Origin: an uncultured Oscillospiraceae bacterium
GTDB taxonomy: Bacteria > Bacillota > Clostridia > Oscillospirales > Oscillospiraceae
Direction of reading: 5' to 3'
Assembly (NCBI GenBank): GCA_947587025.1
Contig: CANPXW010000015.1
Location: 1 to 36,813 of the forward strand
Length of the DNA stretch: 36,813 nt
The first letter of the stretch is position 1, and every line of letters starts with the position of its first letter. The position numbers were made by a program, and so were the translations under genes. Of this stretch, positions 21,775 through 25,396 are shown one piece after another. Below the pieces are notes generated by a model. That model had not been told where the DNA came from. It made no database searches and saw only the letters and a program-made list of their open reading frames with translations.

Positions 21775-23010
21775 TCATTCCTTATACGTATACCTCCCCA
21801 GCAGGCGGCGGAAGGCCAGGCATATGACGACGCCGGCCAGGCCCACCAGGCCCATCGCCAGGGCCGGGCCGGCTGCGCCCGCCAGGGGCACGCATACCTT
21901 ATCCACCAGCGCCCCGCCGGCCAGGGTCCCCACGGGCAGGGTGAAAAACTGCAGAGTGTTCCGGCAGGCGTACACCCGCCCCTGCAGCCCGGCGGGGATG
22001 GTGCTGCGCAGTATCACGTCCATGCAGGCGTTCATCACCGGCACCAGCAGCCAGCCGGCGATCTGGGCCAGGCACCACCACGGGGGCGTCCGGGCAAAGG
22101 CCAGCATAAAGCACTCCGTGCCCAGGGAGAACAGCGCGATGCGCCAGATAAGCCGCACCCTATCCCTGGGCGGGGGCATGGCCGAGGCCAGCAGGCTGCC
22201 CGCCAGCATGGCCAGCCCCGCGCAGGACCCGACAGCCCCCAGCGCAGCCTCGCCCCCGCCGGGGGCGGACAGTACATAGGGCGGCAGCACCGCGTCGAAG
22301 GCCGAGGCGGCCAGGTTCACCCCCGCCATGAACAGGATGAGGGTAAGGATCAGCCCGTTTTCCCGCATATACCCCAGCGCCCCGGCCACGCTCCGCCAAA
22401 GGCTCTCCCGCCGCTGCGTCGGCGCGGATACCGGCGGGATGGGCACGAACAGCGCCAGGGACAGAAACGCCGCCGCGAAGGTGGCCAGGTCCACCCATAT
22501 CACGCCCTCCATCCCCGTCAGGGCGAACAGCGTCGCCGCCAGGGGCGGGTGGATGATGGTGGCGAGGGAATTGGAAAGGGACCGCAGACCGCTGGTGCGC
22601 TGGTACTGGCTCCGGGGCGTGATGAGCGTCATGGCCACCTCGCCGGCGGGCTGCTGCACCGTGTTCATCAGCCCGGCCAGGGCGTTGAGGGCATACAGAT
22701 GCCCCGGCCGCAGCGCGCCGGCCCGCAGCAGGATCAGCACCGCCGCCGAGCAGCAGGCCGCCAGGGTGTCGCAGGCCAGCAGGGTGCGCTTTTTGTCCCA
22801 GCGGTCGCTGAGCGCCCCGGCGAACACGCTGACCAGCACATAGGGCGCATAGGAGCACACGCCCAGCAGCGCCGTCTGCAGCGCCGAGCCGGTCCGCTCA
22901 TACAGCCACAGGGTCAGGGCGAAGTACGTCATCTCGCTGCCCAGCTGGGACAGCGACTGGGTAGACCAGAGGATGAAAAAGGTCCCCAGGCCCGCATATC
23001 GTTTTTTCAT
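21775..23010 (-). CDS. MFS transporter, drug-efflux type
   Basis: A 411-residue membrane protein with twelve hydrophobic segments. It begins MKKRYAGLGTFFILWSTQSLSQLGSEM, and between segments 2 and 3 has the MFS loop GALSDRWDKKR. The pattern is that of the macrolide-efflux-like branch (MefA and relatives), but the substrate is not provable. The start is set by AAGGAG before the ATG; earlier in-frame starts would lie in the regulatory leader. The gene has its own promoter and a 160-nt leader with a 15-codon open frame and alternative hairpins, a layout known from antibiotic-inducible resistance genes. The GNAT gene follows on the same strand after about 70 nt. Confidence 0.9.
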   Translation of the reverse strand: MKKRYAGLGTFFILWSTQSLSQLGSEMTYFALTLWLYERTGSALQTALLGVCSYAPYVLVSVFAGALSDRWDKKRTLLACDTLAACCSAAVLILLRAGALRPGHLYALNALAGLMNTVQQPAGEVAMTLITPRSQYQRTSGLRSLSNSLATIIHPPLAATLFALTGMEGVIWVDLATFAAAFLSLALFVPIPPVSAPTQRRESLWRSVAGALGYMRENGLILTLILFMAGVNLAASAFDAVLPPYVLSAPGGGEAALGAVGSCAGLAMLAGSLLASAMPPPRDRVRLIWRIALFSLGTECFMLAFARTPPWWCLAQIAGWLLVPVMNACMDVILRSTIPAGLQGRVYACRNTLQFFTLPVGTLAGGALVDKVCVPLAGAAGPALAMGLVGLAGVVICLAFRRLLGRYTYKE

Positions 23011-23098
23011 TTTGACCTTGCTCCTTACATTTTGATATTTCATCAAAACCGCAAGGTCAGAGGATATGCGCCGTCGCGCTATCGCTCCGCGCAGCTCC
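23011..23098 (-). promoter_or_regulatory. Attenuator-like leader of the MFS gene
   Basis: In the MFS mRNA, CGCTATCG and CTCCGCGCA inside the leader frame can pair with TGCGCGGAG and CGATAGCG just after it. A second helix is possible between CGCAAGGTTTGAGGA (end of the leader frame) and TCCTCTGACCTTGCG further on (13 of 15 Watson-Crick plus one wobble). The two compete for bases around the leader stop codon. A small hairpin TTTTGAT-GAA-ATCAAAA type lies next to the MFS ribosome site. Stalling on the leader peptide could switch between the folds. Confidence 0.6.
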
Positions 23099-23146
23099 TC
23101 AAACCTTGCGCGGAGCGGAGACGATAGCGAGAGGCAGACAGGGCAT
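23099..23146 (-). CDS. Leader peptide upstream of the MFS gene
   Basis: A 15-codon frame encoding MPCLPLAIVSAPRKV, with an excellent ribosome site AAAGGAGG eight bases before the ATG, better than that of the transporter itself. It starts about 24 nt after the predicted transcription start (promoter 23177-23205) and its last codons are part of both alternative hairpins. Such a frame before a drug-efflux gene fits a stalling peptide, as in the ermC or msr leaders. The sequence does not match a leader I know. The Arg-Lys near the end recalls macrolide-dependent stalling motifs with basic residues, but the inducer is not known. Confidence 0.6.
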   Translation of the reverse strand: MPCLPLAIVSAPRKV

Positions 23147-23176
23147 GATGTTGCCCTCCTTTCAGCCGTTTTTCCC

Positions 23177-23205
23177 ATCATAGCATGTCAGGTGGAGTTT
23201 TGCAA
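23177..23205 (-). promoter_or_regulatory. Sigma-A promoter of the MFS gene
   Basis: TTGCAA (23200-23205), 17-nt spacer, TATGAT (23177-23182) on the minus strand. A BlaI-type operator (23210-23223) starts only 5 bases upstream of the -35 box. Confidence 0.75.
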
Positions 23206-23209
23206 TTTT

Positions 23210-23268
23210 ACTACCACAGTCGTATTGACAAGTTTTTACGACTGTGGTAGTATTACTACAATAGTAGT
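23210..23268 (+). promoter_or_regulatory. BlaI-type promoter and three operators, first module
   Basis: Promoter TTGACA (23225-23230), 17 nt, TAGTAT (23248-23253). Three 14-bp operators surround it: ACTACCACAGTCGT (23210-23223), its exact reverse complement (23238-23251, overlapping the -10 box), and the palindrome ACTAC-AATA-GTAGT (23255-23268). ACTA/TAGT half-sites are those known for BlaI/MecI repressors. The regulator gene follows at once, so negative autoregulation is likely. Confidence 0.85.
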
Positions 23269-23285
23269 AATCAGGAGGACCAGCT

Positions 23286-23645
23286 ATGGACGGCAAGCTG
23301 TACGATTCGGAGCTGAAGGTGATGGACGTGCTGTGGCGGGAGGGGGACTGCACCGCCGCCCACATCGCCCAGGTGCTGACGGGCTCGGTGGGCTGGAACG
23401 TGAACACCACCTACACCCTCATCAACCGCTGCATCAAAAAAGGGGCCATAGAGCGCCGGGAGCCGAGATTCACCTGCCACGCCCTGGTGGAGAAGGCCCA
23501 GGTGCAGGCCGATGAGACGGAGGAGCTGATCGGCAAGCTGTACGACGGCTCGGCGGAGACGCTCTTCGCCGCCCTGCTGGGGCGGAAAAAGTACACAGCG
23601 GACGAGATCGAGCGTCTGCGCAAAATGGTGGATGAATTAAAATGA
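23286..23645 (+). CDS. BlaI/MecI/CopY-family repressor, first module
   Basis: A 119-residue winged-helix repressor. The N-terminal domain reads LYDSELKVMDVLWREGDCTAAHIA and the recognition part VGWNVNTTYTLINRCIKKGAIER, both diagnostic for the family. The C-terminal part is a dimerisation helix pair (ETLFAALLGRKKYTADEIERLRKM). In known systems the repressor is cut or released when a BlaR1-type protease is activated. AGGAGG precedes the ATG. The stop overlaps the start of the protease gene by four bases (ATGA). It is clearly related to the second repressor at 28174-28527 and probably arose by duplication. Confidence 0.94.
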   Translation: MDGKLYDSELKVMDVLWREGDCTAAHIAQVLTGSVGWNVNTTYTLINRCIKKGAIERREPRFTCHALVEKAQVQADETEELIGKLYDGSAETLFAALLGRKKYTADEIERLRKMVDELK

Positions 23646-25396
23646 CGCTGCCGGAGATGTCCATCGCCGGCGGCGCGGTCATCCTGGCGGTGACGGCCAT
23701 CCGGGCGCTGGCGCTGGACCGGCTGCCGAAGCGGACGTTTTTGGTGCTGTGGACGGTGGCGGTGCTGCGGCTGCTGGTACCGGTGCGGGTGCCCTCGCCG
23801 GTGAGCGTATACCGGCTCTTTGACCAGGCGCGGCCGGCAGCGGTGGAAATTGCCATGGCGGAGCCAGCAGCCCTGCCGGAGACACAGCCGGCGGCCGTCC
23901 CCTCGCCGCCGGAGGTCCCCGCCATTGGGACAGAGCCCGAAATATCCATCCCCTGGCTGACCGTCCTCTGGGCGGCGGGGGCCGCCGGGTGCGCGGTGTA
24001 CTTTCTCTTGGGCTACATCGCCGCCCTGGTCCGGTTCCGGGAGGCGGTGGAGGTGCAGGACCCCTTCGTGGACCGGTGGCGGGACAGCTACGGCCTGCGG
24101 CGGCGGGTGTCGGTGCGCCTGTCGGGCCGGGTGAAGGGCCCGGCCGCCTACGGCCTTCTCCGCCCGGTGATATTGCTCAGCGCCGACGTGGACTGGCGCG
24201 ACCGGCAGCGGATGTGGCTCATCCTCTGCCACGAATACACCCACATCCGGCGGCTGGACGGGGCCAAAAAGCTCATCCTCGCGGCCACCGCCTGTCTGCA
24301 CTGGTTCAACCCCCTGGTGTGGCTGATGCTCCTGCTGGCAGGCCGGGACATGGAGCTTGCCTGCGACGAGCAGGTGCTGCGCGCCATGGGTTCCGACGGC
24401 CGGGCCGACTACGCCCGCACCCTCATCGACATGGCCCCTACCCGCCCCGGCGCCTCGCCTCTGGTCACTTATTTTGACAAAAGCGCCCTGGCCGAGCGGA
24501 TAGGAGCCATCATGAAGACGAAAAAGCCCTCTGCCCCGGCGGCTGCGGCGGGGGCGCTGCTGGTGCTGGCGGTGACGGCGGTGTTCGCCGGCTCTGCCCC
24601 GGCGGCAAAGGCGGCTGTCACGGTCCCGGAGCCCTCCGCCCCGGCGGTGCACCGCATCGCCTACACGGCCCCGTCCCCGTCCCCCGCGCCGGCGGAGCCG
24701 GAGGCCACGGCCCGGCCCCGGCCCACGAAAAACGAGGTGCTCTCCGCCCGAAAGCAGGCCCTTGCGGGCATGGCCCAAGTCGACATCGACCGGCTGACAA
24801 GCGTCATCACTTACCAGAACCAATGGTGGGAGAACGAGTACCTCAGCAATATCCTCACCCGGCTGGAGGATGCGGAGGACCTGGCCTGGAACTACTTCGA
24901 CCAGACCGGCGAGATCGAGGTGTCCTACGCCTTCGGCTGGGAGTACGAGGGCGATCTGACCCCGGAGGAGATAGACGCCCAGTGCCTGGCGGAGGGTCTG
25001 TCCAGAGAGGAGTTTTTTACAAAGTACGGCGTCCAGCGTATCAGCACGGTGGCCGTCGAAAACAAGTACTCTGTGGACCAGATCGTCTCCATGCTGGAGG
25101 ACATGCGCTCCACGGTGCAGAACGAGGACCTGCGCACAGACCTTGCCTACCTCTCCCGGCAGATACGCCTGGCCCAGAGGACCCACAGCATGTGGCATGT
25201 GAGCCAGATGTTCAAGCTGCTCCACGACCTGGACTACTACCTGCTGCGCTACGGCCCGGAGGACCAGCCCTCCACCCGGCCGGGGGAGCCCTCCGCCGTG
25301 GGGGTATACTACGGCATGCTCACCATCCTGGGCGCGGACCACGGCCTGGGCCCGGACCCGGACTGGCAGCCCGCCTCTCCGCCGCCCGCTCCGTAA
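23642..25396 (+). CDS. BlaR1/MecR1-like M56 membrane metalloprotease, first module
   Basis: A 584-residue protein. Hydrophobic segments lie near residues 8-25, 33-48, 103-130 and 297-318. The zinc site HEYTH is at 197-201, followed by the family sequences CLHWFNPLVWLM and RDMELACDEQVL, where the third ligand is expected. The last membrane segment is followed by about 265 outside residues: a Pro/Ala-rich stretch, then an alpha-helical part (SVDQIVSMLEDMRS and neighbours). No SxxK or KTG motif of a penicillin-binding sensor domain was seen, so it is not a standard beta-lactam sensor. Signal unknown. Expected substrate is the coupled BlaI-type repressor. Confidence 0.88.
   Translation: MTLPEMSIAGGAVILAVTAIRALALDRLPKRTFLVLWTVAVLRLLVPVRVPSPVSVYRLFDQARPAAVEIAMAEPAALPETQPAAVPSPPEVPAIGTEPEISIPWLTVLWAAGAAGCAVYFLLGYIAALVRFREAVEVQDPFVDRWRDSYGLRRRVSVRLSGRVKGPAAYGLLRPVILLSADVDWRDRQRMWLILCHEYTHIRRLDGAKKLILAATACLHWFNPLVWLMLLLAGRDMELACDEQVLRAMGSDGRADYARTLIDMAPTRPGASPLVTYFDKSALAERIGAIMKTKKPSAPAAAAGALLVLAVTAVFAGSAPAAKAAVTVPEPSAPAVHRIAYTAPSPSPAPAEPEATARPRPTKNEVLSARKQALAGMAQVDIDRLTSVITYQNQWWENEYLSNILTRLEDAEDLAWNYFDQTGEIEVSYAFGWEYEGDLTPEEIDAQCLAEGLSREEFFTKYGVQRISTVAVENKYSVDQIVSMLEDMRSTVQNEDLRTDLAYLSRQIRLAQRTHSMWHVSQMFKLLHDLDYYLLRYGPEDQPSTRPGEPSAVGVYYGMLTILGADHGLGPDPDWQPASPPPAP

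Follow-up and report, generated by a model that had tools for sequence, protein, structure and literature searches.

The question raised by this locus is whether a short reading frame in front of an MFS efflux-type gene acts as a switch for that gene and, if so, what the switch responds to. In the window, by which we mean the whole stretch of 36,813 nucleotides analyzed here, the minus strand carries the entire unit, a promoter-like site followed by a leader frame and the MFS gene (Table 1). A first-pass annotation of this DNA had proposed a leader-peptide attenuator, with a 15-codon frame and a strong ribosome site lying between a promoter and the transporter gene. That frame is indeed present, preceded by AGGAGGG at 23160-23154, and as far as sequence can tell, a short frame with its own Shine-Dalgarno (SD) sequence stands between promoter-like site and gene, as in an attenuator; the promoter is recognized by consensus match only, and 4.5 kb of DNA, both strands counted, holds five such sites versus 0.9 in shuffled sequences. 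No terminator-like site was found inside the window's leader, so control would act on translation, and transcriptional attenuation was ruled out on this ground. Based on sequence comparison and fold modeling, we propose that the unit is a translational attenuator in which a drug acting at the peptidyl-transferase center would stall a ribosome at the Ile codon of a conserved L-[C/A]-I motif and thereby open the SD of the pump gene. We put the probability of this explanation as a whole at roughly 0.7.

Table 1. Features of the leader and transporter locus in the window
Feature	Position	Strand	Basis
Promoter-like site TTGCAA-17-TATGAT, TG preceding the second hexamer	23177..23205	-	9/12 consensus matches; consensus match only
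Leader-frame Shine-Dalgarno AGGAGGG	23154..23160	-	sequence
Leader frame MPCLPLAIVSAPRKV + TGA, 15 codons, ATG at 23146	23099..23146	-	sequence; counterparts in relatives
Leu-Ala-Ile codons, an instance of the conserved L-[C/A]-I motif	23123..23131	-	conservation and fold scan over many leaders
Ile codon, predicted P-site codon of the stalled ribosome	23125-23123	-	fold scan over many leaders
S1 GCTCCGCGCA, partner of S2	23107..23116	-	folding, covariation
CTCC inside S1, alternative partner of GGAG in the MFS Shine-Dalgarno	23115-23112	-	folding
S1b CGCAAGGTTTGAGGA, end of the leader frame and just beyond, partner of S3 (anti-sequestor)	23096..23110	-	folding, covariation
S2 TGCGCGGAGC, partner of S1; matches the window's Cys-to-Arg codon change	23084..23093	-	alignment, covariation
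S3 TCCTCTGACCTTGCG, partner of either S1b or S4	23050..23064	-	alignment, covariation
Inner stem of the sequestor hairpin, TTTTGAT/ATATCAAAA	23030..23048	-	folding
Transporter Shine-Dalgarno AAGGAG (23026-23021) and S4 GCAAGGTC	23014..23026	-	sequence, covariation, folding
MFS transporter, 411 aa, Mef-like, start at 23010	21775..23010	-	TIGR00900 subfamily below cut-off; Pfam MFS_1, MFS_3

The best NCBIfam model for the pump is TIGR00900, with 154 bits against a cut-off of 320. The Mef models come next and are far under their cut-offs (Mef(C), 71.9 bits versus 870; Mef(A), 71.2 versus 675). Hence, the pump resembles Mef-type transporters and does not reach the curated cut-off for a Mef exporter.

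If the leader is functional, the frame and the paired segments should be conserved before homologous transporters, and the first-pass annotation had named a lack of such conservation as grounds for refutation. A search with the pump gave a match at an E value of 0.001 or better in 17 of 35 genomes of the genus; among 300 genomes of the family, 128 had a match, mostly a distant one. With the window left out of the count, the leader is present before 29 of the 30 assessable MFS homologues of at least 37% identity. In the genus, all 15 loci with at least 54% identity carry it, the window again not counted. Of the 15 further family loci of at least 37% identity that could be assessed, 14 do so, the exception being L032; a locus with no start on its contig (L034) and a 65-residue piece (G139:C72) were not counted. 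Of the distant homologues, the 12 that were retrieved (L017, L018, and L035 to L044) gave no covariance match at an E value of 0.01 or better. The expected conservation is therefore found among the closer homologues, together with covariation of the helices as described below. When the window is included, 26 of the 30 leaders end in APC followed by two or more residues, three in APR, and one in PLC. Individual leaders deviate: L007 and L008 have insertions of approximately 180 to 270 bases within the S1-S2 loop, L010 and L031 have no stop at the usual position, and the S3-S4 part is poor in L029 and L030. In the window's own genome, the covariance model has a single match, the leader at the 23-kb locus itself.

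A separate observation concerns a small hairpin-like insert (AGCTGACGGGAGGC..CACACGTCAGCT) that occurs in several species, in the S1-S2 or S2-S3 loops of L004, L015, and L016, and that is also carried, with a longer stretch inside, by L007 and L008. Perhaps it is a small mobile repeat that is tolerated in the loops of the switch.

The 192-nt leader of the window has a fold z score of -4.06, and none of 200 shuffled sequences was as stable. Its frame end (S1 and S1b) can pair alternatively with S2, with S3, or with the MFS SD itself. The earlier claim that the last codons have two downstream partners thus holds for S2 and S3, whose folds exclude each other, while the third partner, the SD, had been missed. 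S1:S2 and S1b:S3 have bases in common and cannot coexist, and S1b:S3 likewise excludes S3:S4. Covariation was assessed in an alignment of 25 of the 30 leaders (A1), five leaders longer than 170 bases having been left out; L007, L008, L022, and some near-duplicates were excluded from a further alignment (A3), and another (A2) was discarded on account of spurious rows. In A1, S1:S2 and S3:S4 together are paired in 95.1% of 450 cells, compared with 31 to 39% for slid versions of the same helices, and 17 cells carry double changes versus 3.5 in shuffles, with both sides changed in eight pairs. For S1b:S3, 92.5% of 373 cells are paired (slid versions, 27 to 49%), and double-change cells number 36 versus 11.1. 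Weaker are the number of S1b:S3 pairs with double changes, which is seven and was reached by 24 of 500 shuffles, and the number of further pair types, reached by 17 of 500 shuffles for S1:S2 plus S3:S4 and by 44 of 500 for S1b:S3. Covariation and modeling together indicate exclusive helices, one of which hides the SD of the gene, the modeling being weak for the window itself.

Single leaders are informative here. In the window, the consensus Cys codon is an Arg codon and S2 is altered to match; in L024, the peptide reads SPLCKA, again with matching changes in the pairing. Because the partners change along with them, the APC part appears to be held as RNA, and we rejected the idea that APC is kept as peptide. 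At the level of sequence comparison, two things can be regarded as demonstrated, the conservation of a short leader frame and the existence of three helices that compete with one another (S1:S2, S1b:S3, and S3:S4, the last of which includes the SD), and the conserved frame, the competing helices, and the covariation support the proposal of a leader-peptide attenuator before the MFS gene.

The same evidence bears on another reading, in which the upstream stretch is coding, so that the true MFS protein has 57 more residues and the leader has arisen by accident. Its frame does stay open up to an ATG at 23181 (open reading frame 21775-23181), yet this ATG overlaps the -10 box and so would lie upstream of the likely transcript start. 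Moreover, the alignment of homologues begins at the start at 23010, the DNA upstream differs except for the leader elements, and such conservation as it has tracks RNA pairing and the leader frame. We consider this reading most improbable.

Returning to the attenuator, conservation across leaders concerns both the peptide, with the motif L-[C/A]-I-[A/V], and the RNA, with the segment GCTCCATGC. The two were separated in a set of 213 S1-S2 sites, of which 53 had no accepted start (many being mirror matches on the other strand). Those with S1 in frame 0 numbered 127, and removal of four odd peptides and of duplicates left 118 distinct leaders of class A. Of these, 99 have Leu at position -5, with six codons in use; position -4 is Cys in 70 (two codons), Ala in 25, and Ser and Thr in one each; position -3 is Ile in 90, encoded by ATT in 81 of these, and is never Gly; position -2 is Ala in 63 (four codons), Val in 38, and Gly in five; and position -1 is taken by 17 different residues. 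At -5, variation is clearly greater at the third codon position than at the first and second; at -2, it is greater at the third than at the first; and no third-position bias is seen at -4 and -3. The codons GCT CCA TGC are nearly invariant at every position, an invariance that is partly a matter of selection, since S1 was a fixed element of the pattern or model behind most class A leaders, and the 19 leaders whose loci came from protein homology had likewise passed an S1 pattern. From these codon usages, L and [A/V] are most clearly held as peptide and [C/A]-I probably so, and S1 is held as RNA. Since the Ile is written mostly with one codon, its conservation may be partly at the RNA level.

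Not all leaders read S1 in the same frame. In the nine class C leaders that a scripted scan picked up, which precede CD3324 genes, S1 lies in a different frame and MxL[T/V/C/A][I/N] is kept at the same distance within one base (9/9), and in class B leaders (Cfr, Lsa, and other CD3324 genes) S1 is in the third frame and other motifs are found. Many CD3324 leaders carry another motif, such as KRNEV; the Lsa leader is longer and contains ..LTHDNLHIE.. (read by eye); and three of the four CatA-like leaders have Gly at -4 (MKRGLD[A/N/E]APC).

Where a ribosome would have to stop was examined in a fold scan of 107 leaders, in which a 30-nt ribosome footprint was masked at each codon and the accessibility of the SD was computed. 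The mean accessibility was 0.21 without a ribosome; 0.24, 0.35, 0.52, and 0.22 with the P site at -5, -4, -3, and -2, respectively; and 0.14 from -1 on. Of 25 real leaders sampled, 23 had the maximum at -3 or -4, versus 8 of 50 shuffles, the shuffled leaders being more open throughout (0.44 to 0.50). By toeprint convention, the front edge of a ribosome lies 14 to 15 bases past the first P-site base. The assignment to a codon rests on this assumed edge, and a footprint one base longer would favor -4 as the stall codon. Expressed as the last masked base, the peak falls at S1 index 4 to 6 for MFS leaders (n = 45 sampled) and at about 3 to 6 for Cfr (n = 6) and CD3324 (n = 13) leaders; the scan was flat for Lsa leaders (n = 6), and class C leaders were too few (n = 2).

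Pair probabilities over the 107 leaders follow the same course. Without a ribosome, CUCC pairs with the GGAG of the SD at 0.40 and with S2 at 0.50, and S3:S4 stands at 0.55. A P site at -5 gives 0.08, 0.68, and 0.76, in the same order. At -3, CUCC is masked, so that its loss of pairing is imposed by the mask, S1b:S3 reaches 0.78, and S3:S4 falls to 0.33; past -3, S3:S4 rises to 0.99. In the window, CUCC:SD is 0.62 without a ribosome, S1b:S3 is 1.00 at -3, and S3:S4 is 0.91 to 0.99 beyond. The modeled SD accessibility of the window is 0.30 without a ribosome, 0.48 at -4, 0.38 at -3, 0.32 at -1, 0.44 at +3, and 0.34 at +4. Hence, in the model, the pair states of the window follow the same logic, but the effect on accessibility is small.

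The following sequence of events would fit these models. In the absence of a ribosome, the RNA would be divided between two off states, one in which the CUCC of S1 lies on the GGAG of the SD together with S1b:S3 and one in which S1:S2 coexists with S3:S4. A ribosome at the end of the leader would cover S1b, so that S3:S4 closes the SD. A ribosome whose P site is occupied by the Ile codon of L-[C/A]-I would have its front edge over CUCC and leave S1b free; a stall at this site would remove the first lock and weaken the second, and the pump would be translated. The cause of the stall may be an antibiotic at the peptidyl-transferase center that senses the penultimate residue, a step for which we have moderate confidence, with phenicol-like drugs first in line. 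The transporter would then export the inducing drug or a relative of it.

The switch extends beyond MFS genes. The covariance model R1 found the element at an E value of 0.01 or better in 30 of 391 genomes of the class, and model R2, built from 49 sequences, found it in 11 of 398 genomes of the phylum, 51 of 194 in one further family, and 4 of 20 in another. Downstream genes were classed by BLAST against our own reference set, and some sites recur between the counts. The 30 loci read for R1 (two further matches lie outside this count) comprise 20 MFS genes including that of the window, three CatA-like and two Cfr genes, four chance-like matches, and one locus with no readable gene. The 41 read for R2, among them part of the matches in the 194-genome family, comprise 15 MFS, eight CD3324-family, five Cfr, three ceramidase-like, one esterase, and one nucleotidyltransferase-like gene and eight loci with none. 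A further 23 sites gave 11 CD3324, five Lsa, three Cfr, two MFS, and one phosphotransferase-like gene and one with none. The ceramidase-like and esterase labels derive from Pfam, and the nucleotidyltransferase-like and phosphotransferase-like labels were assigned by eye. As distinct sites, there are seven for Cfr and five for Lsa, plus a sixth Lsa leader detected by pattern in L102. Model scores, from one or two examples each, are 678 bits for Cfr (cut-off, 468), 767 for Lsa (750), and 110 and 113 for CD3324 (65); two CatA-like proteins, at 210 and 212 bits, are below the cut-off of 270.

A pattern scan of a collection of named genomes added at least 119 stretches. Among the 80 matches listed, 54 precede MFS genes, 12 CD3324-like genes, and one a CatA-like gene, and 13 precede none nameable by BLAST (three of these being CD3324-like by eye); the 39 further stretches were used in leader scans only. 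Named carriers include Hungatella hathewayi, Ruminococcus callidus, Emergencia timonensis, Breznakia pachnodae, and Paenibacillus turicensis. Some matches were set aside: L071 to L074, L085 to L088, L118, and L119 are weak, chance-like covariance matches, L088 being judged a repeat of L085/L087 (one genome, equal score), and L163, L174, L179, L193, L209, L210, and L215 from the pattern scan look like chance or coding sequence. Leader-like elements with no nameable gene downstream are found at L068, L111, L115, L122, L202, and L216, and at L079 and L092, apparently decayed loci, what look like remnants of a pump gene follow the switch.

In at least three genomes (L121, L136, and L137), Cfr and Lsa-type ABC-F genes stand in tandem, with one copy of the switch each. 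Small HTH (Mor-like) genes of the CD3324 family are frequent targets as well (L080, L106, L140, L141, and others); our literature search returned no paper that pairs the CD3324 name with Clostridioides difficile. The switch precedes only 3 of 24 CatA homologues and is absent before the CatA-like gene of Pusillibacter and before the cfr of pEF-01, in which the upstream region of clinical cfr was read, the Staphylococcus aureus record pSA8589 beginning at base 1 of cfr. As to mobile spread, no phage match was found at an E value of 1e-30. Five plasmid records matched, and the two that were opened, labeled as Subdoligranulum and Monoglobus plasmids, both contain the leader; these records may be chromosomal pieces.

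What would the stalled ribosome sense? The known drugs of Cfr, CatA, and Lsa ABC-F proteins meet at the peptidyl-transferase center. That one switch stands before CatA-like, Cfr, and Lsa genes alike points to drugs of this site, and we assume with moderate confidence that such drugs induce it, phenicol-like ones first. That the inducer is a phenicol-like drug in particular is about an even bet, and we rate some peptidyl-transferase-center drug higher. At the predicted stall, where Ile occupies the P site, the residue at -4 is the penultimate one, Ala in the window and more often Cys elsewhere (see the counts above). The leaders of cat-86 and cmlA have a small residue, T or A, in the penultimate place of their stall. 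According to passages of PMC8987054, arrest by chloramphenicol and linezolid is best with a penultimate Ala and weaker with Ser or Thr. Passages of PMC11832420 give the same penultimate preference for chloramphenicol and add that almost no inhibition is left when Gly occupies position 0 or +1; Cys is not named in the chloramphenicol passages of either paper. Counting against a phenicol are the Gly at -4 of most CatA-like leaders, the scarcity of the switch among CatA homologues, and the several drug classes that Cfr spans.

Given the Mef-like pump, the same attenuator might instead respond to drugs that bind in the tunnel, macrolides or others. Among named exporter models, Mef(C) and Mef(A) come nearest, with about 72 bits each, many CD3324 leaders encode Lys/Arg-rich peptides, and mef/mel has a macrolide-induced leader attenuator, as described in passages of PMC5418344. 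This alternative, which we consider unlikely, is weakened by the distance of the pump from the Mef cut-offs, by a motif L-[C/A]-I that has no charged residue, and by a predicted stalled chain of just 5 residues in the most frequent type of leader, whose start lies 21 nt before S1 (80/118). In addition, CatA-like genes are not macrolide genes. The frequent Cys at -4 (70/118) and the conserved Leu and Ile could also suggest that the leader senses the supply of an amino acid, Cys or a branched-chain one, and not a drug. This seems very improbable, as -4 is Ala in 25 of the 118 leaders, the type of the window among them, such codons are few per leader, and the nameable downstream genes are mostly of resistance type, not biosynthetic. 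A stall provoked by a drug at the peptidyl-transferase center remains our preferred explanation.

Comparison with known systems places the switch in a familiar class. The peptide, which the first-pass annotation had not recognized, resembles no leader that we know of, and Rfam gives no family either: a search of 601 window bases against Rfam 15 returned only two unrelated miRNA models, both below threshold, and 11 loci gave no match. A literature search found no description of the leader; its scope excludes most subscription papers and all bioRxiv preprints, so the leader may be described elsewhere. The suggested ribosome-stalling plan of erm genes stands in part. Exclusive folds and a leader frame are found; the four-segment layout with its 2:3 pairing is not, since S3 pairs with S1b or S4. 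Whereas the four-segment plan of ermC includes an S2:S3 pairing, here there is none, the anti-SD segment has its partner in the final part of the leader frame, the leader CUCC can pair with the SD directly, and the peptide is unrelated. The likeness to ermC, as portrayed in passages of PMC10219788, lies in two exclusive folds and in the sensing of ribosome position.

Leader attenuators of cat, cmlA, fexA, erm, and other genes are already known, as passages of PMC5418344 set out. The phenicol-induced cat, cmlA, and fexA systems described there share with our locus a short leader frame; in them, a drug-stalled ribosome frees the SD of a phenicol transferase or exporter, as we propose a stall to do for the pump gene. 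In contrast, peptide and RNA are different here, the leader end lies on the anti-SD segment, the SD has a modeled second lock, and, mostly in Clostridia, one switch is common to MFS, CatA-like, Cfr, Lsa, and CD3324 genes. The streptococcal mef/mel(msrD) system has a Mef-type MFS pump under leader control, as proposed here (passages of PMC4335068 and PMC5418344), but that control is transcriptional and uses a terminator, and no terminator hairpin with a U run was found here. The upstream open reading frames of cplR, vmlR, and lsaA resemble the present case in serving resistance genes of Clostridia and other Gram-positive bacteria and in SD sequestration. Following passages of PMC10201436, their consensus is a different one, MR[I/M], MIN, or MAGN, with a terminator in the case of cplR, and the leader before our Lsa genes is the longer one noted above.

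What appears to be new, within the literature searched, is the modeled double lock, the recurrence of the switch before different gene families, and the use of one RNA in three frames; the kind itself is known. We would give somewhat less than even odds to a broader proposal, that all these elements are one double-locked, band-pass sensor of ribosome position, mostly of Clostridia, serving at least five resistance-type or unknown gene families in three reading frames, with exchangeable short motifs setting the inducer and with M-x-L-Cys-Ile as a new penultimate-Cys stall context. Such a sensor would open the SD only with a ribosome halted within about one codon of a fixed place and would stay off both without ribosomes and under full translation. 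If true, this would be a widespread control of inducible resistance in Clostridia, so far unnamed in the searched literature, and would help to predict which ribosome drugs turn on which pumps, rRNA methylases, and protection factors. It would also provide a sequence signature by which inducible genes that are still hidden, pumps and CD3324-family members among them, could be recognized, and over 100 natural candidates for arrest motifs, from which the reading of nascent chains by drug-bound ribosomes could be mapped.

Finally, the pump gene has a divergent neighbor, and the main switch could be transcriptional, operated by a BlaI/MecI-type repressor and an M56 sensor, with the leader adding little. 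We regard this as highly unlikely: operator-like palindromes do lie between the pump and repressor genes, but among loci L001 to L075, with flanks of approximately 1.5 kb or less, a BlaI-like gene stands beside the pump only in the window and in L007 (70.6% identity) and, weakly, in L024, whereas the leader is nearly universal in close homologues. The neighboring genes, which occupy 23286-25396, encode a BlaI-like repressor (Pfam Penicillinase_R) and, after it, an M56 peptidase of the BlaR1 type. Between them and the pump unit, 23209-23271 holds two perfect inverted-arm sequences, TACTACCACAGTCGTA..TACGACTGTGGTAGTA and ATTACTAC-AATA-GTAGTAAT, which overlap the promoter-like site of the repressor and end a few bases from the -35 box of the pump, so the repressor may also touch pump control.
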